Below are positions 36,666 to 46,113 of a stretch of DNA of 64,000 bases, one piece after another (the first letter of the stretch is position 1; every line of letters starts with the position of its first letter). Source of the stretch: a virus; the IMG/VR virus record IMGVR_UViG_3300042890_004841, positions 1-64,000 of that record; one strand, written 5' to 3'. The position numbers and the translations under genes are program-made. The notes under the pieces are model-generated. The model did no database searches. It was not told the origin of the DNA and was given only the letters and a program-made list of their open reading frames with translations.

Positions 36666-37169
36666 GTGAAAGAAAAATTTATAAAACTTTATGCAGATAT
36701 TGCTAAACGAGTATCGGAATTAAGTTATGCTGTACGGTTGAAAGTTGGTGCGATTATTGTTAAAGATGATCGTATCATCAGTATTGGTTATAATGGTATG
36801 CCTAGTGGATGGGACAATGGCTGTGAATATACTGAATTTATGCCTATCAACGACCCTACAGCAAAATTTCAAGACTATCCTTTTACAGGTAATTTTTGGA
36901 TTAATGGTCACAGCGTAGAAAGAAGATACAGACTAAAAACCAAACCTGAAGTATTGCATGCTGAATCAAATGCTTTGGCAAAATTAGCTAAGTCTAACGA
37001 GAGTGGGGATGGTGCTGATTTGTTTATTACACACAGTCCTTGTATCGATTGCGCTAAACTAATTTACCAATCAGGTATTCGTCGTGTGTATTTTGGTACA
37101 CACTATAGGGACGATGCAGGGATAAAATTTCTTGAAAAAAGTGGAGTAGAAGTTATTTCACATGGATAA
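36666..37169 (+). CDS. Deoxycytidylate (dCMP) deaminase
   Basis: 168 residues from a GTG. Zinc site: H98-A-E100 (LHAESNA) with C126 and C129 (SPCIDC). Substrate region like T4 gp cd, including YNGMPSGWDNGCE. It turns dCMP to dUMP and feeds dTTP synthesis for phage DNA. A GGGA lies about 6 nt before the GTG; no better ATG is nearby. Its end overlaps the first gene of the LRW array. Confidence 0.9.
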   Translation: MKEKFIKLYADIAKRVSELSYAVRLKVGAIIVKDDRIISIGYNGMPSGWDNGCEYTEFMPINDPTAKFQDYPFTGNFWINGHSVERRYRLKTKPEVLHAESNALAKLAKSNESGDGADLFITHSPCIDCAKLIYQSGIRRVYFGTHYRDDAGIKFLEKSGVEVISHG

Positions 37170-37353
37170 TCATACCTTAACAGTTACCATACCATTTGGT
37201 AAGTTAGGAGATATTTTTGATTGGTGTCAACATAATTGCACAGGCGAATGGCATTTCGCTAATTTAGAAGTAGGTGGACAAGATGCAGGACATTATGTTG
37301 TAAGTTTTAGTAATGAAAATGATTGTAATTTTTTCGCAATGAGATGGATGTAG
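37162..37353 (+). CDS. LRW-array gene 1 (63 aa)
   Basis: First gene of the tandem LRW family. Layout: strand TLTVTIPF, helix KLGDIFDWCQHNCTGEW, strand HYVVSFSNEN, final helix NDCNFFAMRWM. The W-C in the first helix and the F-x-N/E-x-x-D-x-x-x-F-x-x-R-W ending are the family signature. Function unknown. Its ATG lies inside the dCMP deaminase stop region, and its end overlaps the next gene by 10 bases. Confidence 0.72.
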   Translation: MDNHTLTVTIPFGKLGDIFDWCQHNCTGEWHFANLEVGGQDAGHYVVSFSNENDCNFFAMRWM

Positions 37354-37568
37354 GTCAACGTTTTTTAATTTTTTCAGGGGTGCCTAATATTTCTACTCAT
37401 GAACACTGTTGTTTTATCATAGATTTTACATGGTGGGTAGAAAATGATGCAGAAATTACAAGTTGGTTATTAAAAAATATTGGGGTAAATAATTTTAAAT
37501 TAGATGGTATTGTTCTACAATTTACCACAGCAGAACTACAATCATTTTTTTTGCTTACTTGGAGTTAA
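37344..37568 (+). CDS. LRW-array gene 2 (74 aa)
   Basis: Starts in the overlap with gene 1. Strand RFLIFSG, insertion, strand CCFIIDFTWW, helix ITSWLLKNIG, strand IVLQFTTAE, end SFFLLTWS. The DNA for its ending supplies a TGGAG site 6 nt before the next ATG. Family signature retained but Leu-Thr replaces Leu-Arg. Confidence 0.68.
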   Translation: MDVGQRFLIFSGVPNISTHEHCCFIIDFTWWVENDAEITSWLLKNIGVNNFKLDGIVLQFTTAELQSFFLLTWS

Positions 37569-37570
37569 TT

Positions 37571-37789
37571 ATGATTATTATTGTTGATTCTTTTGATTGC
37601 CAACAAGCAATGAACGATTTAGGTATTGACCAAGATAGCAATGAATTTGTACCTGCTTTTGAAAAAAGACATGATTGTTTTGTACACCATTACGTGTTAT
37701 CTTGCGGAATTAAACAATTTAATTGTATTGCGTATATCGAGTTTCATAATGAAGCAAGTTATAACTTATTTGCGTTGAAATACATGTAG
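37571..37789 (+). CDS. LRW-array gene 3 (72 aa)
   Basis: ATG at 37571, with GGAG of the upstream TWS-stop codons as its site. MIIIVDSFDCQQAMNDLG, then a strand pair and end NLFALKYM. A divergent family member. Followed by a promoter, so genes 1-3 form a first sub-operon behind dCMP deaminase. Confidence 0.65.
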   Translation: MIIIVDSFDCQQAMNDLGIDQDSNEFVPAFEKRHDCFVHHYVLSCGIKQFNCIAYIEFHNEASYNLFALKYM

Positions 37790-37797
37790 CGAAATAC

Positions 37798-37826
37798 TTG
37801 ACAACAATTTTTTAATATTTTATAAT
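37798..37826 (+). promoter_or_regulatory. Sigma70-type promoter at head of main LRW array
   Basis: TTGACA (37798-37803), 17-nt A/T spacer, TATAAT (37821-37826). The last promoter I can find before 45.5 kb, so it may drive a transcript of over 7 kb. Confidence 0.82.
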
Positions 37827-37838
37827 AGGAATGAATAA

Positions 37839-37988
37839 ATGTACAAATATCAACTTTGGGTACGACTTAACGACTATCAAACCGCTAACACCATCATTTG
37901 GGCAAATAATGACTATGAAGCTAAAATGCTTGGTGAGGCACAATATGGAGTAGGTAATGTCCTCAACTACACAAGAATTGATGATTGA
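37839..37988 (+). CDS. Conserved small phage protein (49 aa)
   Basis: MYKYQLWVRLNDYQTANTII, then WANNDYEAKMLGEAQYG and an end NVLNYTRIDD. I recall this exact type of short protein in other phages. AGG lies upstream of the ATG. Its last 32 bases overlap the next gene in another frame. It is not an LRW-family member but leads the operon. Confidence 0.72.
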   Translation: MYKYQLWVRLNDYQTANTIIWANNDYEAKMLGEAQYGVGNVLNYTRIDD

Positions 37989-38181
37989 AACGAAAGAGGT
38001 TGATAAAGAAGGTTGCTACGATTGGGTAGAAACTTATGCATTATTGCCTAAATTTACTATTTCAGGTAAAATGCTATGGTTCAAGAAATGCTACAAACGT
38101 AGAGTGCGTATTATTTGGAAACAACCATATGATGTTGATTACGTAATGGAGTATGCTACTGCCTTAGATTTATTGAAGTAA
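37957..38181 (+). CDS. Hypothetical protein (74 aa)
   Basis: MSSTTQELMIETKEVDKEGC, then strands FTISGKMLWFKKCYKRRVRII. GGAG 6 nt before the ATG, inside the coding sequence of the 49-residue protein. It has no LRW ending. Not recognised. Confidence 0.62.
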   Translation: MSSTTQELMIETKEVDKEGCYDWVETYALLPKFTISGKMLWFKKCYKRRVRIIWKQPYDVDYVMEYATALDLLK

Positions 38182-38183
38182 CC

Positions 38184-38411
38184 ATGAATGTTAAGCGATA
38201 TAGTGCGCATACATGGGGATGGGATACTAATTGTAATGGGTGGTATCTAGCATATGTCAATAGTGGTAATTATGAAGAAGTCCTTGATTGGTTATACGAT
38301 AATGTAGAAGGGTGTGAAAAACATTGTCGTTGGCGTTTTTTCCATGCGCATACTGAGGTGAAATTTAGACATGAACGTGATTTTGTATGGTTTAATTTAG
38401 TGTGGCGATAA
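38184..38411 (+). CDS. LRW-array gene 4 (75 aa)
   Basis: Strand WYLAYVN, helix YEEVLDWLYDNVEGCEKH, strand EVKFRHER, end DFVWFNLVWR. Clear family layout. Starts 2 bases after the upstream stop; its stop shares a base with the next start (ATAATG). Confidence 0.7.
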   Translation: MNVKRYSAHTWGWDTNCNGWYLAYVNSGNYEEVLDWLYDNVEGCEKHCRWRFFHAHTEVKFRHERDFVWFNLVWR

Positions 38412-38638
38412 TGGCATATTTTGTTCAAAATAATGAATTGAAACATGTTTTATATAATTTGTGGGAAGGTTCAGGACAAAAATTTGTACCAAAATTGGGT
38501 ATTGATTCTAAGATTCAAGCTTGTGATTGGTTTTATGATAATTATGGTATCCGCCTTGTTTATAATGGACATGCGTTAAAAGGTTGGATTTTTAAAAGTG
38601 AAGAACATTATACTTGGTTTATGTTAAATTATTCTTAA
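38411..38638 (+). CDS. LRW-array gene 5 (75 aa)
   Basis: ATG at 38411 overlaps the upstream TAA (TAATG). The family helix is KIQACDWFYDNYG, followed by strands and the end EEHYTWFMLNYS. The final RW is replaced by NY, so it is a diverged member. Confidence 0.66.
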   Translation: MAYFVQNNELKHVLYNLWEGSGQKFVPKLGIDSKIQACDWFYDNYGIRLVYNGHALKGWIFKSEEHYTWFMLNYS

Positions 38639-38639
38639 T

Positions 38640-38927
38640 ATGCTATTAACTAGAACAGAATTTATAAAATATGCTAATAAACATTGGCCTAATATAGGTA
38701 CGGATAATACTAGCCCATTATGGATACCTGAAGTAAGTTTAGGTGATCAATGTCAATATTTTTTGTTTATTCCTGTGATGCAACGATGGAACAAAAGTGA
38801 TTTTTGGGAATGGTCAGATAAATTATTGATTGGGAAAACACGATGTTTCATGCGTGGTAATGATGGTGAAATATGGGGATTTACCAATGAAGATGATATT
38901 AATATGTTTTTGCTGAGGTGGTCATGA
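38640..38927 (+). CDS. LRW-array gene 6 (95 aa)
   Basis: Longer N-terminal part with SPLWIPEVSLGDQCQYFLFI, then helix KSDFWEWSDKLLIG, strand EIWGFTNED, end INMFLLRWS. Its last codons are CTGAGGTGGTCATGA (38913-38927), which hold the site and start of the next gene. The first of the perfect junctions. Confidence 0.7.
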   Translation: MLLTRTEFIKYANKHWPNIGTDNTSPLWIPEVSLGDQCQYFLFIPVMQRWNKSDFWEWSDKLLIGKTRCFMRGNDGEIWGFTNEDDINMFLLRWS

Positions 38928-39190
38928 AAGATTGTATCCAAGATTTTATTGCAGCTTGGAAGCATTATGATGGGCTTTCTGCTCCAACTATTACAAGTTG
39001 GAGCAATAGGTTAGCTGAGGGTGGCTATTATAGTGTTACATTGACAGGTCAAAGTCTTTTAGTTGATTGGCAGGATGTTCATCGATGGTGTGAGCATGAG
39101 TTTGGCGAAAGACACTATACTTGGACTGGTAACGTATTTTGGTTCGAAAATGAATGTGATGCTAATTGGTTTGCCCTGAGGTGGTCATGA
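38924..39190 (+). CDS. LRW-array gene 7 (88 aa)
   Basis: ATG at 38924 is inside the upstream TGA (ATGA) with GAGGTGG 3 nt before it. Helix VHRWCEHEFGERH, strand NVFWFENE, end CDANWFALRWS. One of the best examples of the family. Ends with a perfect junction (39176-39190). Confidence 0.75.
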   Translation: MKDCIQDFIAAWKHYDGLSAPTITSWSNRLAEGGYYSVTLTGQSLLVDWQDVHRWCEHEFGERHYTWTGNVFWFENECDANWFALRWS

Positions 39191-39396
39191 GTAAAAGAGA
39201 TTGGTGTAATATTCCAGTAAAGGTTCCATATCGTAGCACAGGTCAATGGCGTGATCTGCGTATATGGCTGATGGAAAATGTCAACGACATGGACTATGAT
39301 GCTGCTGGTGTAGATTTACAGGATTATGATAATAGAGTATTTTATTTTGCCAGATCAAAGGATGCCATGTGGTTTGCCTTGAGGTGGAGTTCATGA
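39187..39396 (+). CDS. LRW-array gene 8 (69 aa)
   Basis: MSKRDWCNIPVKVPY, helix DLRIWLMENVND, strand RVFYFARS, end KDAMWFALRWSS. The ending has an extra Ser; GAGGTGG lies 6 nt before the next ATG (AGTTCATGA). Confidence 0.73.
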   Translation: MSKRDWCNIPVKVPYRSTGQWRDLRIWLMENVNDMDYDAAGVDLQDYDNRVFYFARSKDAMWFALRWSS

Positions 39397-39818
39397 TAAA
39401 ATGGTTTAAACAACAGTATAAAGCGTGGAAAGATCGACGTTTCCTAAAACGTCACGGTTGTAGAGATTGGGAAGAATACCACTATTGTTACGATCCAGAC
39501 CGAAACATTCGTTGTACTAGGGTAAAAGACTACTATCATGGTTATCCTTATTGGCATGTGTTTGAAAGATCTAATCACTATTGTTATAAGTTACTCTATG
39601 ATTACGGTCCGGGCGGACATCGTTGCGGCTATCACGATATAATCGATTGGTGCGAGGAAAATGCCAAAGGTAAACACAGAACAGATTTCTTGCGTGTGAT
39701 AAAATATCCTAGCACAGGTAACGAATGGGAAATAAACGAATTTGTCGGAGGTGATCATATCTTTGTGGCGTTCAAAGAAGAACGAGATTATTTAATGTTT
39801 GTGTTGAGGTGGTCATGA
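39393..39818 (+). CDS. LRW-array gene 9, long form with extra N-terminal domain (141 aa)
   Basis: The N-terminal half (MIKWFKQQYKAWKDRRFLKR, then WEEYHYCYDPD and VKDYYHGYPYWHVFE) is a distinct Tyr/Trp-rich domain. The C-terminal half is a full family unit: helix YHDIIDWCEENAKGK, strand HIFVAFKEE, end RDYLMFVLRWS. This long architecture resembles conserved proteins in T4-like aquatic phages and could be the ancestral form from which shorter units arose. Ends with a perfect junction (39804-39818). Confidence 0.73.
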   Translation: MIKWFKQQYKAWKDRRFLKRHGCRDWEEYHYCYDPDRNIRCTRVKDYYHGYPYWHVFERSNHYCYKLLYDYGPGGHRCGYHDIIDWCEENAKGKHRTDFLRVIKYPSTGNEWEINEFVGGDHIFVAFKEERDYLMFVLRWS

Positions 39819-40072
39819 CATATGATCTTGTGATCAGTCAAGAAGGGCCAGACGCTCATCCTTTATACAGTGCCGTTAAGCACAGCATTGAATGGATAGG
39901 AAAAAAGCATCAAGTCAATAGTCCTATGGATTTGAAATATTTGACTGAAGAAGAATTTGATATTAGAATTGAAGCAGTGGGATATCTAACTAATACATCA
40001 GGTAATTATAGATATAGGGTAAGTTTCCGTGATGAACGACATTATACTTGGTTTATATTGAGGTGGTCATGA
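39815..40072 (+). CDS. LRW-array gene 10 (85 aa)
   Basis: MTYDLVISQEGPDAHPLY, helix VKHSIEWIGKKHQ, strands, end RHYTWFILRWS. Start in the junction ATGA. Its own last 15 bases are TTGAGGTGGTCATGA. Confidence 0.72.
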   Translation: MTYDLVISQEGPDAHPLYSAVKHSIEWIGKKHQVNSPMDLKYLTEEEFDIRIEAVGYLTNTSGNYRYRVSFRDERHYTWFILRWS

Positions 40073-40296
40073 TTGGTTTTTATTTAGAAAATTTTCTAAT
40101 AAATTGTCCCATATATTGGCAAAACTTTGTAAAGGCCAATCAGGATAATCCTGATCATGATACAGCATTAAGAATACTTAATAGAAAACTTAAGCCTTTT
40201 AAAGCAAGATATGTTCCCGCAAACTTTTGTGACCCCGATAAAGTTGTATTTGAAGATGAGCATAGCTTAAATTGGTTTATATTGAGGTGGTCATAA
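40069..40296 (+). CDS. LRW-array gene 11 (75 aa)
   Basis: MIGFYLENFLINCPIYW, helix DTALRILNRKLKPF, strand KVVFEDEH, end SLNWFILRWS. The junction to the next gene is a variant: TTGAGGTGGTCATAATG, so the stop is TAA and the next ATG overlaps it by one base. Confidence 0.72.
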   Translation: MIGFYLENFLINCPIYWQNFVKANQDNPDHDTALRILNRKLKPFKARYVPANFCDPDKVVFEDEHSLNWFILRWS

Positions 40297-40487
40297 TGGG
40301 GATGGGGTATCCTGTAACTGTTGCATGTAGTAATATCATGGAAGTATCTGAACGACTAGAATGGGCAGAAAAACATGGTATAAAACTACTGAATCGCACT
40401 TGGGTAGTTATCAATGAACGACAACATGTATCATTCTTTTTTGAAAAAGAAAAGGATGCTACAATTTTTGCACTGAGGTGGTCATGA
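40296..40487 (+). CDS. LRW-array gene 12 (63 aa)
   Basis: MGMGYPVTVACSN, helix VSERLEWAEKHGI, strand VSFFFEKE, end KDATIFALRWS. ATG 40302 (MGYPV) is an alternative start. Perfect junction at the end (40473-40487). Confidence 0.72.
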   Translation: MGMGYPVTVACSNIMEVSERLEWAEKHGIKLLNRTWVVINERQHVSFFFEKEKDATIFALRWS

Positions 40488-40696
40488 CCAAATTGCCCGA
40501 CTACCCTTATCTTCAAAATATCGTATCTTATTATCGTAAGATGACCGATAACTCGAATGGACCTTTATATCATGATGATTACATTACCTATCTAAAATCA
40601 TTTGGATTTCGAGTTCCAATAGAATTTGGTACTCTTGAATTTCCTGATGATTTTTCAGAAAAGGATTTAATGATGTTCATATTGAGGTGGTCATGA
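40484..40696 (+). CDS. LRW-array gene 13 (70 aa)
   Basis: MTKLPDYPYLQNIVSYYRK, helix YHDDYITYLKSFG, strand LEFPDDFS, end EKDLMMFILRWS. Its last 15 bases are TTGAGGTGGTCATGA (40682-40696), but the ATG there opens only a 6-codon frame before gene 14. Confidence 0.7.
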   Translation: MTKLPDYPYLQNIVSYYRKMTDNSNGPLYHDDYITYLKSFGFRVPIEFGTLEFPDDFSEKDLMMFILRWS

Positions 40697-40713
40697 GCAA
40701 AGTGTTTGCATGA
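40693..40713 (+). CDS. Six-codon leader ORF between array genes 13 and 14
   Basis: The junction ATG (40693) opens MSKVFA and then stops at TGA (40711-40713), overlapping the ATGATG start of gene 14. It probably keeps ribosomes coupled across a junction that lost its original gene start. It may be a remnant. Confidence 0.45.
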   Translation: MSKVFA

Positions 40714-40919
40714 TGAGACCACAAGATTTTGAACATCGTATAGAAATTGAACCTATATTGACTAAAAGTCATGAAGATGCTATACATGAATGGTGTAGGC
40801 GACATTTAGGTAGATACGGTGAAACTTGGTATACCTATTACAGCCAACAAAGTCATAAAATCATAGTATGTTTTCAGCATAGCCAAGATGCTGTTTGGTT
40901 TACTTTGAGATGGGCATAA
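40710..40919 (+). CDS. LRW-array gene 14 (69 aa)
   Basis: MMRPQDFEHRIEIEPIL, helix HEDAIHEWCRRHLGRYG, strand IIVCFQHS, end QDAVWFTLRWA. Start at the ATGATGA overlap with a 6-codon leader. The ending DNA is the variant TTGAGATGGGCATAATG. Confidence 0.72.
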   Translation: MMRPQDFEHRIEIEPILTKSHEDAIHEWCRRHLGRYGETWYTYYSQQSHKIIVCFQHSQDAVWFTLRWA

Positions 40920-41116
40920 TGTATACTCTTAACTTAGCTGAATTACCCGCTACCAAGTCTGTAGAATTTTTAGTATGGGTTTTTACTAATCAAATTGGAA
41001 ATTATATGTCTCTGCTAGAATTAATAACCAAAGACATTAATTGGCATTATAAAACAAGTATTCCTTTTGAATGCTCTGAACAAGAAGCAATATTGGTAAT
41101 TTTGAGGTGGGCATGA
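40919..41116 (+). CDS. LRW-array gene 15 (65 aa)
   Basis: MYTLNLAELPATKSVEFLVW, strand SIPFECSEQ, end EAILVILRWA. The last bases TTGAGGTGGGCATGA (41102-41116) keep the overlap function while coding Ala instead of Ser. Confidence 0.7.
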   Translation: MYTLNLAELPATKSVEFLVWVFTNQIGNYMSLLELITKDINWHYKTSIPFECSEQEAILVILRWA

Positions 41117-41364
41117 AGCCAAGTGAATTACTGACCATAGCAGAAAAATATTGGCTTACAGACTATGATCATAAAAAGCCTCTATCACCAAATACTCCCT
41201 TTGTCACCGGTGTGGCCCGTACTGATGCTATATTACATGACATGCTGATTAAACATGGTGTAGAACTGATATTGAAACAGAGTGGACATAGAAATTGGCA
41301 ATTGGCTGATTACCGTGTAGTTGATGACAAAAAGTTTATGTGGTTCCTAATGAGGTGGTCATAA
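41113..41364 (+). CDS. LRW-array gene 16 (83 aa)
   Basis: MKPSELLTIAEKYWLTDYD, helix ILHDMLIKHGVELI, strand and end KKFMWFLMRWS. Methionine replaces Leu before RW; the DNA reads ATGAGGTGGTCATAATG, still holding GAGGTGG. Confidence 0.7.
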   Translation: MKPSELLTIAEKYWLTDYDHKKPLSPNTPFVTGVARTDAILHDMLIKHGVELILKQSGHRNWQLADYRVVDDKKFMWFLMRWS

Positions 41365-41621
41365 TGACATATATAGATAATCCTAACATTTGGTATAATC
41401 TACAAATACATTTTAAAAATAATATCATGCCCGTCTTGGAGAATGATGATCAAGTTTGGGCGACAGCATTTAGGCGTTGGCTAAAAGAACAAGGTGCTGA
41501 CATTGCGCAAGCACAGAACATACGCTACTTGCGTAATAGTTTACAAATAGCACCTCAATTTGATCAATTGGTATTTGAAAATGATAGAGATGCTACGATG
41601 TTTTTATTGAGGTGGTCGTGA
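41364..41621 (+). CDS. LRW-array gene 17 (85 aa)
   Basis: MTYIDNPNIWYNLQIHFKNN, helix WATAFRRWLKEQGADI, strand QLVFENDR, end DATMFLLRWS. A close paralogue of the gene at 43987 over its whole length. Junction is TTGAGGTGGTCGTGATGG, an unusual variant where TGATG is the overlap. Confidence 0.73.
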   Translation: MTYIDNPNIWYNLQIHFKNNIMPVLENDDQVWATAFRRWLKEQGADIAQAQNIRYLRNSLQIAPQFDQLVFENDRDATMFLLRWS

Positions 41622-41830
41622 TGGCTCTACATACAGTTGTTTATCATAGACTTGAACCTGGTATGTTGGCAGGACATATTCGCAGTCTATTAGACTATAA
41701 TGTAGATCGTTGGTTGGAAGAAAATTGTCAGGGACGCTATTATCACAATCCTGGTTGGACAGATACAAAGTATATTCAATTCGAAGATAGCAGAGATGCC
41801 ATGTGGTTTGCCTTGAGGTATGGACGATGA
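41621..41830 (+). CDS. LRW-array gene 18 (69 aa)
   Basis: MALHTVVYHRLEPGMLAGH, helix NVDRWLEENCQGRY, strand YIQFEDSR, end DAMWFALRYGR. The C-terminus has RYGR rather than RWS, and the junction DNA is TTGAGGTATGGACGATGA. Confidence 0.72.
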   Translation: MALHTVVYHRLEPGMLAGHIRSLLDYNVDRWLEENCQGRYYHNPGWTDTKYIQFEDSRDAMWFALRYGR

Positions 41831-42057
41831 ATAGATTGGTTTGTTTACCTGCTGATTGGGGGCCTGTGCAAAAAGCTGCTGTTTGGTTAAGGGAACATTT
41901 GGACATACCTGATTATGAAACAATAGAAAGTCAATTTGAAGAATATTTTAATTGTAAGGTTATAAGGGATCCACCACATGATGTAGTCTATGGTAAAATA
42001 TATGCTGTATTTGAGTGTGAGCAAGATGCTAATTGGTTTATATTGAGGTGGTCATGA
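41827..42057 (+). CDS. LRW-array gene 19 (76 aa)
   Basis: MNRLVCLPADWGPVQKAAVW, helix AAVWLREHLDIPD, strand IYAVFECEQ, end DANWFILRWS. Perfect junction at its end (42043-42057). Confidence 0.72.
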   Translation: MNRLVCLPADWGPVQKAAVWLREHLDIPDYETIESQFEEYFNCKVIRDPPHDVVYGKIYAVFECEQDANWFILRWS

Positions 42058-42398
42058 AAATACAGCGAATACAGAAATTTGAAGATGGTCAAAAGATATA
42101 TGTGTTAGGCTCGGTTACTACACTTTCATTTCGTCAATATATGGATCAATACTCAGATTCAACTGTATGGAGTAGAGAACATCAGGCACATCATGCTATT
42201 AAACGACTCATAAAACTAGAATACAGTGAATTATATCAATGGTTATGCAGTCAAGATTGTCAAACAACCAATTGGATTGATGATAGAATATTTTCACTAC
42301 CATATCAATTCAGTGCTCAAATCAATTTATTTGATTGGGGTATAGGGTTCAGGTCAAATGATCCCAAAGAAACTTTGTTTATATTGAAGTGGCAATGA
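42054..42398 (+). CDS. LRW-array gene 20, longer form (114 aa)
   Basis: Extra N-terminal part (MKIQRIQKFEDGQKIYVLGS, TVWSREHQAHHAIKRLIK), then helix YSELYQWLCSQD, strands, and the end DPKETLFILKWQ. Lys replaces Arg; the DNA TTGAAGTGGCAATGA has a weaker site for the next gene. Confidence 0.7.
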   Translation: MKIQRIQKFEDGQKIYVLGSVTTLSFRQYMDQYSDSTVWSREHQAHHAIKRLIKLEYSELYQWLCSQDCQTTNWIDDRIFSLPYQFSAQINLFDWGIGFRSNDPKETLFILKWQ

Positions 42399-42634
42399 AT
42401 TATAATAGTAAATTTGATCAATATCATATGAAAATTACTGATAATTATATTACGGTAAATCGTAATAAACTCGATATTGTTGAAGCTATAAAGTGGGTTA
42501 AAAAGAATTGCCCACACTATATAACAAATCAATATCACGGTAATTATCATGGCAATGATCTTATTGATTTCTTTTTTTTAGACAAGCCAAAAGCTAAAGA
42601 AGAGATGACAATGTTTATTTTAAAATGGGCATAA
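42395..42634 (+). CDS. LRW-array gene 21 (79 aa)
   Basis: MNYNSKFDQYHMKITDNY, helix IVEAIKWVKKNCP, strand LIDFFFLDK, end EEMTMFILKWA. Start in the ATGA overlap; ends with AAATGGGCATAATG. Confidence 0.7.
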   Translation: MNYNSKFDQYHMKITDNYITVNRNKLDIVEAIKWVKKNCPHYITNQYHGNYHGNDLIDFFFLDKPKAKEEMTMFILKWA

Positions 42635-42882
42635 TGATTAATTTTGATAGTCCATTTAAAAAAGAATGGGAAGAACAATTAAAATGGTTGGATGAAACTA
42701 TACAAAGAAATTATACCAATGATGGTAGACCATTCAATAAAAGTACAGTGGCTCAATTTTTAGAATGGCGCAGTATGGATAAAGAAACATGGAAGTTTAG
42801 AATACAAGGATTGCCTCCTACACTTATAGTTACTTTTAAAGACCCTGAACATGAATTCTTATATAATTTAAGATGGAGATAA
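42634..42882 (+). CDS. LRW-array gene 22 (82 aa)
   Basis: MINFDSPFKKEWEEQLKWLD, helix STVAQFLEWRSMD, strand LIVTFKDPE, end HEFLYNLRWR. The coding DNA for RWR (AGATGGAGATAA) supplies GGAG for the TTG start that follows. Confidence 0.7.
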   Translation: MINFDSPFKKEWEEQLKWLDETIQRNYTNDGRPFNKSTVAQFLEWRSMDKETWKFRIQGLPPTLIVTFKDPEHEFLYNLRWR

Positions 42883-42883
42883 A

Positions 42884-43105
42884 TTGGCTATTGATGTAAT
42901 CATTGAAGGAAAAGAGTTATCACAATATATTGACATTGTGCGTGAACTACGTGCCTCAGGATTAAATCAAGGAGAACATTTTGATTTTAAATACATTCCA
43001 TCAGTATATGATTACGAAAAATATAGAATTACTCCAAAAAAAGTTATCTTTACATTTTATGATGAACAATACTCTACATTATTTCGTTTAAAATATGAAT
43101 CCTAA
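42884..43105 (+). CDS. LRW-array gene 23, TTG start (73 aa)
   Basis: TTG at 42884 with GGAG 5 nt upstream; no in-frame ATG is near. MAIDVIIEGKELSQYIDIV, then VIFTFYDEQ and the end YSTLFRLKYES. A diverged member with KY for RW. Overlaps the next gene by 11 bases. Confidence 0.62.
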   Translation: MAIDVIIEGKELSQYIDIVRELRASGLNQGEHFDFKYIPSVYDYEKYRITPKKVIFTFYDEQYSTLFRLKYES

Positions 43106-43280
43106 ATATCCGTATATTGCATCTATTTGTCCTCCTGATGGTGGTAAACGTGGTTGGTATGATGTAATATCGTGGTGCCATGAAAAGATAGGTGCCACAC
43201 ATTCTCAATATGTAGGTGAAGGTGTTTTTGCATTTGAAAATGAAAGTGATTATATGATGTTTATATTGAGGTGGACATAG
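43095..43280 (+). CDS. LRW-array gene 24 (61 aa)
   Basis: MNPKYPYIASICPPDGGKR, helix YDVISWCHEKIGA, strand GVFAFENES, end DYMMFILRWT. Almost the minimal full family unit. Ends TTGAGGTGGACATAG, with the stop before the next start. Confidence 0.74.
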   Translation: MNPKYPYIASICPPDGGKRGWYDVISWCHEKIGATHSQYVGEGVFAFENESDYMMFILRWT

Positions 43281-43281
43281 A

Positions 43282-43521
43282 TTGAATACTAAGGAATGTC
43301 AATGTTTTGAATGTCTCAAACCAAATTTTACCAAGTTTGTCAGCACCTTTATCGTATGTGACACCTGTGGTAACAAACGTTGCCCACACGCTACTGATCA
43401 TAGATTAGGATGCACCAACAGCAATGACCCAGGACAACTTGGCAGCAGATACGGTGTCTACCCACACCCATCTATAGAGTTATTAGATTTTTTGGATGCT
43501 GCCAATGAAGATAAAGAATAA
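43282..43521 (+). CDS. Cys-rich zinc-binding phage protein within the array (79 aa)
   Basis: TTG start with GAGGTGG of the previous gene 8 nt upstream. Contains CQCFEC, CDTCGNKRCPHATDH and CTNSNDPGQLGS. The NKRCPxAxxHxxxCTxSNxPGQxGS pattern is common in phage proteins. Probably binds zinc. It is not an LRW member but uses the same junction signal, so foreign genes can sit in the array. Confidence 0.72.
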   Translation: MNTKECQCFECLKPNFTKFVSTFIVCDTCGNKRCPHATDHRLGCTNSNDPGQLGSRYGVYPHPSIELLDFLDAANEDKE

Positions 43522-43738
43522 TCATTTACCACGTAATGGAGAATATGAAATATTTACTACCCAAGGACGCACTTATTGTTTTGATGATCCATCGTTAGAA
43601 GTCATGCAAGCACCTAATGAAATGTTTGAATGGTTAAGAAATATGCCAAGAGAACTATGTAGACCACTAGATCATACTAATGTTGCATTTTATCTAACTC
43701 CTGAAATGTATACCTTGTGGAAAATTACTTGGTTATGA
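43505..43738 (+). CDS. LRW-array gene 25 (77 aa)
   Basis: MKIKNNHLPRNGEYEIFTTQ; ATG 43496 is an alternative start. Helix NEMFEWLRNMPREL, strand VAFYLTPE, end MYTLWKITWL. Diverged ending. Overlaps the zinc protein by 17 bases. Confidence 0.62.
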   Translation: MKIKNNHLPRNGEYEIFTTQGRTYCFDDPSLEVMQAPNEMFEWLRNMPRELCRPLDHTNVAFYLTPEMYTLWKITWL

Positions 43739-43742
43739 TATA

Positions 43743-43952
43743 ATGATGAGAAGACTTAAAAAAGAAATTTGGCCTTATAAAATTACAGTGAATTATCCTG
43801 CTGATTCTCAAATTATTGATATTGAATTATGGTTAATTGAAAAGTTTGGTGAAAGAAGAAATAAGTGGAATGTAGTTTATGGTTTTTATAAGTCTGATTT
43901 TTACTTTAAAGAAGAATCTATGCTAACATTTTTTGCAATGCGATGGAACTAA
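43743..43952 (+). CDS. LRW-array gene 26 (69 aa)
   Basis: MMRRLKKEIWPYKITVNYP, helix IDIELWLIEKFGERR, strand DFYFKEES, end MLTFFAMRWN. Its ending codons include the ATG of the minigene that follows (overlap of 10 bases). Confidence 0.68.
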   Translation: MMRRLKKEIWPYKITVNYPADSQIIDIELWLIEKFGERRNKWNVVYGFYKSDFYFKEESMLTFFAMRWN

Positions 43953-43990
43953 CATATAGTCAAATAGTATCTTATTTGAGGTGGTCATGA
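43943..43990 (+). CDS. 15-codon minigene ending in LRWS
   Basis: MELTYSQIVSYLRWS, then TGA. The ATG lies inside gene 26 and the last 15 bases are the full junction TTGAGGTGGTCATGA. It seems to be a collapsed family member retaining only the start and the junction, so that ribosomes can reach gene 27. Confidence 0.55.
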   Translation: MELTYSQIVSYLRWS

Positions 43991-44244
43991 AATATATACA
44001 GGATTCTGACCTGTGGTATACACTACAGGTATATTTTAAAAATAATATCATGCCCAACTTGGTGAATGATGATAAAGTTTGGGCACATGAATTTAGACGA
44101 TGGCTTAAAGAACAAGGTGCTGAAATTGAGCATTTAATGAACCAACGATTAGTGCGTAATAGTTTAGGTATAGCACCCCACTATGATAAATTGGTCTTTG
44201 AGGATGAACAAAGGTTAGCTTGGTTTGTGTTGAGGTGGTCATAA
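43987..44244 (+). CDS. LRW-array gene 27 (85 aa)
   Basis: MKYIQDSDLWYTLQVYFKNN, helix WAHEFRRWLKEQGAEI, strand KLVFEDEQ, end RLAWFVLRWS. Close paralogue of gene 17 with the same length. Ends TTGAGGTGGTCATAA without an ATG at the expected spot. Confidence 0.73.
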   Translation: MKYIQDSDLWYTLQVYFKNNIMPNLVNDDKVWAHEFRRWLKEQGAEIEHLMNQRLVRNSLGIAPHYDKLVFEDEQRLAWFVLRWS

Positions 44245-44290
44245 AATTAAAAAATTAATTAAAATTAACGGTAAACACTATAATGACTAC

Positions 44291-44617
44291 ATGCCATGTG
44301 GCTTAAACATTATAGAAAAACTTTGGTGGTGGTTGGTTCCAGGTGTTCTTGTCAAAGTAAAATGGCCCAAGGGTATGATCACAGTAGATCATAATGACCC
44401 ACGTTGGTTTGATTGTGGTGGTGCAGTATGGGTAACCTACGAAAGCACTGATCCTAATGATCATTATCGCCCATGGATGGAAGCAAATATTGGTAAACAA
44501 AAGTGGGATTGGGATTGGGGATTTGTAGGCAATGATGTTTCAGATAACTGTTTAACCATTAAAGTTAGACAAAATAAGGCAGAGTATGCTACAATGATGA
44601 TTATGATGTGGGGATAG
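44291..44617 (+). CDS. LRW-array gene 28 (108 aa or longer)
   Basis: ATG 44291 gives MPCGLNIIEKLWWWLVPG. The same frame is open upstream to about 44234 and reads KKLIKINGKHYNDY, which looks like real protein; an ATT at 44246 lies 7 nt after the GAGGTGG of the upstream junction and could be a rare start. Contains DPNDHYRPWMEANIGKQKWD; ends EYATMMIMMWG, a worn family ending. Confidence 0.6.
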   Translation: MPCGLNIIEKLWWWLVPGVLVKVKWPKGMITVDHNDPRWFDCGGAVWVTYESTDPNDHYRPWMEANIGKQKWDWDWGFVGNDVSDNCLTIKVRQNKAEYATMMIMMWG

Positions 44618-44618
44618 T

Positions 44619-44993
44619 ATGCGAATAAAACCTTTTCAATCACGATATGCAGTAACTTGGGATGAATATCCTACAGGTATTTCCAACCCTAATGGTAAAG
44701 TGAAGATGGTAAATTGGTGTATCAAAAACTTAAAATTAGATTATATTACTTTGGGGTTTTACGCATATGACCCAAATGGGTTTTACGAACATAATCCACC
44801 AAATGCTGTAAATTCTTGGATGTTAATTAATTTATCAAATGATATTTTGATAACAACAGAAGACGATGTTCATTTAAAATTATTAGACCATGGATCACTA
44901 AAAGCAATCATACTTGATGATTACAGCAAAGCATGCGAATTAGCAGATTATGTTGATCAAATTCATACATTTAATATAATTAAAAGATACTGA
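44619..44993 (+). CDS. Array-associated protein, diverged (124 aa)
   Basis: MRIKPFQSRYAVTWDEYP, helix KVKMVNWCIKNLKL that fits the family, strands with WMLINLSND and then DDVHLKLLDHG where the family ending would be, followed by a further ~30 residues. Perhaps a member with a C-terminal extension, so the LRW end was lost. Confidence 0.6.
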   Translation: MRIKPFQSRYAVTWDEYPTGISNPNGKVKMVNWCIKNLKLDYITLGFYAYDPNGFYEHNPPNAVNSWMLINLSNDILITTEDDVHLKLLDHGSLKAIILDDYSKACELADYVDQIHTFNIIKRY

Positions 44994-44994
44994 C

Positions 44995-45186
44995 ATGAGA
45001 ACCGCACTTTTTCAGCGTGAATTCACCGTAAAGGAGGTAGGTCCTATTAGTGATTTTTTAAAACAATGTAGGAAAATGATGGGACAACCTTCACCTCAAA
45101 CATGGGTGTTTCATGGAAATTATCATAAAATTGTTTTATATATTTATGACGATAAGTATGCCACATGGTTTAGTTTAAGGTATTGA
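44995..45186 (+). CDS. LRW-array gene 29 (63 aa)
   Basis: MRTALFQREFTVKEVG, helix ISDFLKQCRKMMGQ, strand IVLYIYDDK, end YATWFSLRY. Last clear family member. Short N-terminus and the full layout. 1 base after the upstream stop. Confidence 0.68.
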   Translation: MRTALFQREFTVKEVGPISDFLKQCRKMMGQPSPQTWVFHGNYHKIVLYIYDDKYATWFSLRY

Positions 45187-45567: not shown

Positions 45568-46113
45568 ATGAAACACTTATATGTATATATTAAAGATTTT
45601 TTAACGATAAATCAATGTCAAGATATTATTGAAACTTATCATAAAAATGACAAGAATTTATTTTTAGATTCTCCTACTTTTTGGAAACATTGTTCAACTA
45701 AGATATTATCACCACAGCATTTAGGCAGTTATGCTAGTATGATTGAAGATAAGGTTGCTTGTGTTAATCAAGATGTTTTTGGTTTTGATTTGTTTGCTAA
45801 ACAGTATAACTTATTTCATTTAAACACGTATGAGGGTAAAGATAACCATAACTATGACTTGCATATAGATGCGGTAACAGGATCACCAAAAGATATGAAG
45901 TTAACAGTTATAATTAACTTAACTCAAGGCGATTATACAGGTGGAGAATTTACATTTCCTCCATTAGGTTATGAAGGTAGTATACAAGAATTTGATAGAA
46001 GTACAGGATGTATGTTAGTATTTCCATCTTTTATCGCACATAAAGTAAATAGTGTGACAAGCGGTAAAAGAACTACGCTTGTTACATGGTTTGAAGGACC
46101 AAATTGGAAATAA
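45568..46113 (+). CDS. 2OG-Fe(II) oxygenase, prolyl-hydroxylase-like
   Basis: 181 residues from MKHLYVYIKDFLTINQCQDI. Fe(II) ligands H99-x-D101 (YDLHIDA) and H158 (IAHKVN); R168 (SGKRTT) for 2-oxoglutarate. The order GGEFTFPP ... FPSFIAHKVNSVTSGKR is typical of the P4H/PKHD-type group. It may hydroxylate a protein or small molecule; nothing shows which. Preceded by about 100 bases without a clear gene or strong promoter. Confidence 0.82.
   Translation: MKHLYVYIKDFLTINQCQDIIETYHKNDKNLFLDSPTFWKHCSTKILSPQHLGSYASMIEDKVACVNQDVFGFDLFAKQYNLFHLNTYEGKDNHNYDLHIDAVTGSPKDMKLTVIINLTQGDYTGGEFTFPPLGYEGSIQEFDRSTGCMLVFPSFIAHKVNSVTSGKRTTLVTWFEGPNWK

Follow-up and report, generated by a model that had tools for sequence, protein, structure and literature searches.

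The 15-codon reading frame that an earlier note had singled out in this window (the 64,000 nt analysed here, part of a 94,048-bp virus record from a large uncultivated phage) is probably the scar of a rearrangement: a lost neighbour would have left behind just its ribosome-binding tail, which serves the following gene, gene A. As a minigene, the segment 43943-43990 is ordinary. As a scar, it would amount to a natural experiment in which the two roles of a single sequence come apart: the upstream gene kept the Arg-Trp (RW) codons and lost the Shine-Dalgarno (SD) sequence, and the orphan junction kept the SD and lost the protein. With such a scar one can test whether protein motif and ribosome-binding site have become locked together so that phages can swap small genes freely; such a mechanism of mosaic gene turnover is so far based on few documented boundary sequences.

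At many boundaries of the small-gene array around the site (Table 1), the last codons read TTG AGG TGG TCA TGA, where the Arg-Trp codons form the SD GAGGTGG and the stop codon overlaps the next ATG. The junction word YTGAGGTGGTCATRA occurs in 10 copies in the window, versus 0.00 expected from shuffles; it is real and far above chance. The same short sequence is present at many gene boundaries in the loci compared, with 474 distinct junctions, and across many viral contigs the junction is dual: it encodes the LRW(S) C-terminus of a small alpha/beta family and provides the SD of the next gene, whose start most often lies 8 nt from where the Arg codon begins. As in ordinary translational coupling, where the SD sits in the end of the upstream gene and stop and start overlap as ATGA, GAGGTGG is found in the last codons; unlike in ordinary coupling, the SD here codes for a conserved C-terminal motif common to a large protein family. 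No convincing family was found for the array proteins tested against Pfam and PHROGs, the array DNA had no match among cultured phage records, and the genes starting at 43743 and 44291 had no protein match in cultured phage records either. A perfect sigma70-type promoter (TTGACA-17-TATAAT, 37798-37826) lies inside the start of the array, and the window holds four such perfect sites versus 0.21 expected.

Table 1. Features at and around the orphan junction, in window coordinates.
Feature	Position	Strand	Description
Small-gene array	37162..45186	+	About 30 tail-to-head genes, most with C-terminal F-x-[LM]-[RK]-[WY]
Gene A paralogue	41364..41621	+	Preceded by a full-length array gene with the same terminal junction
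Upstream array gene (gene 29)	43743..43952	+	69 aa, ending FFAMRWN; predicted beta-alpha-beta-beta-alpha; SD lost from its own tail
Reported minigene	43943..43990	+	15-codon ORF MELTYSQIVSYLRWS; probably incidental
Filler	43953..43975	+	23 nt, from upstream stop to junction
Orphan junction	43976..43990	+	TTGAGGTGGTCATGA; combines the SD of gene A (GAGGTGG), codons left from a C-terminal LRWS, and the stop/start overlap
Gene A	43987..44244	+	Downstream array gene, 85 aa, ending FVLRWS; its SD comes from the orphan junction; paralogous to 41364-41621
Gene B	44291..44617	+	Array gene, 108 aa as called

The two functions of the junction word were compared after C-termini with the motif had been grouped at about 60% identity into 619 clusters, considering Arg only and clusters untouched by the search pattern. 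The Arg codon was AGG in 177 of 228 tails (78%) that had a start at SD distance, versus 24 of 76 (32%) that had none (Fisher p = 8e-13). Codon choice thus tracks coupling, and therefore the SD is maintained when it is needed, while RW persists without it; where no gene starts behind, the SD word tends to decay. The junction word is thus under two separable constraints, one on the SD and one on the RW peptide, and the proposal that the junction is the selected unit is only half correct.

The tail of the upstream gene now reads CGATGG and still codes for RW. The model of the upstream protein (pLDDT 86, 15 sequences) has a beta-alpha-beta-beta-alpha order over the 69 aa, with RW ending the last helix. 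A PDB fold search with this model returned nothing significant (best E 0.52), and the viral structure models that matched were uncharacterized proteins, mostly from uncultured Caudovirales, one of them at E 7.9e-4. The upstream gene has homologues in 63 loci. In most of the listed contexts the tail of the homologue itself overlaps the next start with its stop, which brings the Arg/Lys-Trp ([RK]W) codons to SD distance from that start. Among the contexts compared, it is in this clade only that the upstream gene and gene A are neighbours separated by a stray junction.

The 48 bases of 43943-43990 translate as MELTYSQIVSYLRWS followed by a stop. The ATG at 43943 sits in the last codons of the upstream ORF, in a different frame and 7 nt before its stop, and the TGA (43988-43990) overlaps the ATG of gene A at 43987; the short ORF thus adjoins and overlaps the start of the following gene, as operon minigenes do. 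Its C-terminal LRWS is the junction read in the junction-fixed frame, and the array-family fold is absent from the product. These observations bear out the description in the earlier note of a frame that begins in the end of one array gene, finishes in the next gene's junction (TTGAGGTGGTCATGA) and retains LRWS alone. With this base composition, an in-frame start precedes any stop upstream of a random junction with P = 0.48, and a start at least 10 codons upstream of such a junction is found with P = 0.23, so that the 15-codon frame is not beyond chance expectation.

The earlier note had further proposed that the minigene is kept to carry ribosomes into the next gene. In such a functional translation relay, ribosomes finishing 43743-43952 would back up 7 nt, reinitiate at 43943 and reach gene A via ATGA termination-reinitiation. 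The geometry fits, with the minigene start overlapping the upstream stop region and its stop overlapping the next start, and the ORF is unchanged in the related locus L010. Operon minigenes can raise expression of the next gene: in axe-txe, mg1 and mg2 carry SD-like sequences and their action has been demonstrated (PMC8708949). Like mg1 and mg2, the present frame is a very short ORF that overlaps an upstream gene and lies near the next start; unlike them, it has no SD of its own, the sequence before ATG 43943 being ACATTTTTTGCAATGCG, and no sign of codon selection. Gene A, by contrast, possesses its own strong, consensus-like SD. Between the window and L010 there are 0/48 substitutions in the minigene and 7/197 in the neighbouring upstream gene, and at that background zero changes are expected with P of about 0.18 for 48 bases and 0.43 for the 23 nt beyond the upstream gene's end. 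The perfect conservation is compatible with a selected ORF and does not require one; it does not clearly exceed the background, and we find no evidence of selection on the minigene codons. In addition, the minigene is lost in L009 along with genes A and B, and is thus not needed elsewhere in the array. Taken together, these data make a ribosome relay unlikely and argue against that part of the earlier proposal; we infer that the peptide of the 15-codon ORF has no function.

Truncation of a normal gene by an assembly or sequencing error was also considered, given that the contig is metagenomic and that the short junction ORFs of L107, L114 and L115 look like frameshifted or truncated genes. The same 48 bases are found in IMGVR_UViG_3300044527_000952, within 678 identical bases, and again in the more diverged IMGVR_UViG_3300023179_000162 (5% divergence); under their locus labels, the contigs with the same minigene sequence are L008 and L010. 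Because the 48 bases recur in two other IMG/VR contigs, assembly error is highly improbable. In none of its frames does the spacer preserve traces of a longer gene. When the source of the filler was sought in the viral contigs and the compared loci (both strands, up to 4 mismatches), it was found only in its own clade, with chance-level matches elsewhere in L126 and L063 only.

Alternatively, the filler and junction could act on gene A as a small regulatory or promoter element and not be a scar. A weak promoter match (TTTGCA-17-TATAGT, 9/12) ends at 43960, the stretch is conserved in L010, and on the reverse strand of L068 (6340-6380) a junction (WFFILRWS) lies directly behind a promoter-like TTGACA-17-TAAGAT, where, with no gene ahead of it, it seems to act as a leader. 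Against this, the region contains 63 promoter-like sites and its shuffled versions 54.5, and RNA folding at the site is weaker than in shuffles (z 1.17). We regard such an element as quite improbable, less so than an artefact and more so than a relay.

Under the favoured explanation, a rearrangement scar, the 3′ end of the upstream gene would have been joined in this clade via the 23-nt filler to the 5′ junction of gene A. This could have happened through the loss of one or more family genes formerly between the two, or through insertion of gene A with ~15 nt from the end of its previous upstream neighbour still attached. The retained TTGAGGTGGTCATG, which is the SD and start of gene A, would have been kept for that reason, and the tail of the upstream gene, no longer needed as an SD, may have drifted from AGGTGG to CGATGG with RW still coded. 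The 15-codon frame would then be what an AT-rich spacer before such a junction often shows by chance, and any translation of it would amount to low-level reinitiation without an SD. We infer both the direction of the event and the use of the SD by the host. The earlier idea of a deletion product that keeps its junction is supported in this wider form, as a gene-loss or gene-insertion scar, and such scars recur in L009 and L050. A full-length gene at the exact minigene spot, which the earlier note had suggested looking for in relatives, was not found in any contig compared.

L009, on a 138-kb contig, carries the upstream gene at 99% identity and is without the filler, gene A and gene B. It reads GAACTAACATGTGGGGATAGTATG, in which only the last codons of gene B and its GGGGA SD are retained before the next gene. 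In the same locus, gene 43505-43738 has shrunk to a 16-codon remnant (MLPMKIKNNHFYYVMI), and L010 is without the two genes 43282-43738. Among four related arrays, 17 of the 18 distinct gene-content edges, read by hand from BLAST blocks and not all independent, are no more than 25 nt away from a gene stop, against a base rate of 0.20 (p = 2.6e-11). Gene-content differences thus end at gene ends, and not every such end carries the exact junction word. Several joins share 15-28 nt of junction homology (L009 8851-8872 and 9068-9095; L010 8882-8896), and others share about 2 nt (L009 at 43955/44606). Edges at gene ends are also expected from selection for intact genes combined with random breakpoints, so the clustering reveals the unit of change and not the mechanism, and recombination at the junction is not proven by it.

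Of the 474 distinct junctions in the loci compared, 449 terminate an ORF of 40 aa or longer, 11 extend past the end of their locus and 14 are short. The real-looking orphans among these 14 are the rows from this clade (L132, L133), L042, L050 and L068. Short orphan-like matches in L041/L046/L109, L094, L066 and L072 were set aside as unrelated, and that in L182 looks like a truncated gene-B tail. In the distant contig L050 (1890-1949), all that is left of an upstream-gene homologue is MRSLKKQLWPYMITICYLC and a stop, with GAGGTGGCCATG kept for the next gene. This collapse is an independent parallel that spared the SD.

Boundary sequences have been described in other phages. In Island3/Brujita, the neighbouring genes 67 and 68 share ~50 bp coding for the last 18 residues, and the last 18 codons of Island3 gene 68 match those of gene 67 (PMC3029335); a model based on short conserved boundary sequences is also stated in PMC3233612. 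As in those phages, genes with common 3′ ends are gained or lost here as units, with module edges at gene ends. Unlike in Island3/Brujita, dozens of genes share the seam, which is also the next SD and can survive as an orphan. The array may tentatively be viewed as an integrase-free cassette system, in which a single ~15-nt word closes the last helix of each protein, supplies the next gene with its SD and start, and forms the seam for swapping, a view we hold at somewhat below even. On that reading, orphan junctions could, with similar reserve, be portable ribosome-binding sites left by gene traffic; if it is true, any gene could be inserted or lost while the next gene stays expressed.

Six other gene A homologues (L019, L024, L069, L050, L008 and window 41364) each stand behind a long in-frame tail that has the junction at its end. 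Gene A itself is a mosaic, mostly like 41364-41621 (78% DNA identity), with its last ~20 codons like gene 40069-40296 (82%). Homologues of gene B begin further upstream (e.g., MSKLEIKKLF..LPCGLN and MSKREIYGIY..MPCGLN). In the window (44235-44291), there is no in-frame ATG, GTG or TTG between the stop at 44232-44234 and the ATG at 44291; to judge by these homologues, the gene B start appears to have been lost through a small deletion beside the junction. An AUA start of gene B at the junction was rejected, as that ATA is out of frame.

Gene order differs between window 41621-42057 and L009 8176-8648. In L009, the homologue of 41621-41830 immediately follows a gene that resembles 38924-39190 and 41827-42057 equally closely, and the differing order is evidence of shuffling within the array. 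Behind the array, the 2OG-Fe(II) oxygenase gene 45568-46113 is missing from L009 and L010, where the alignment resumes at the Bax1-I gene, and its L008 counterpart is just 60% identical.
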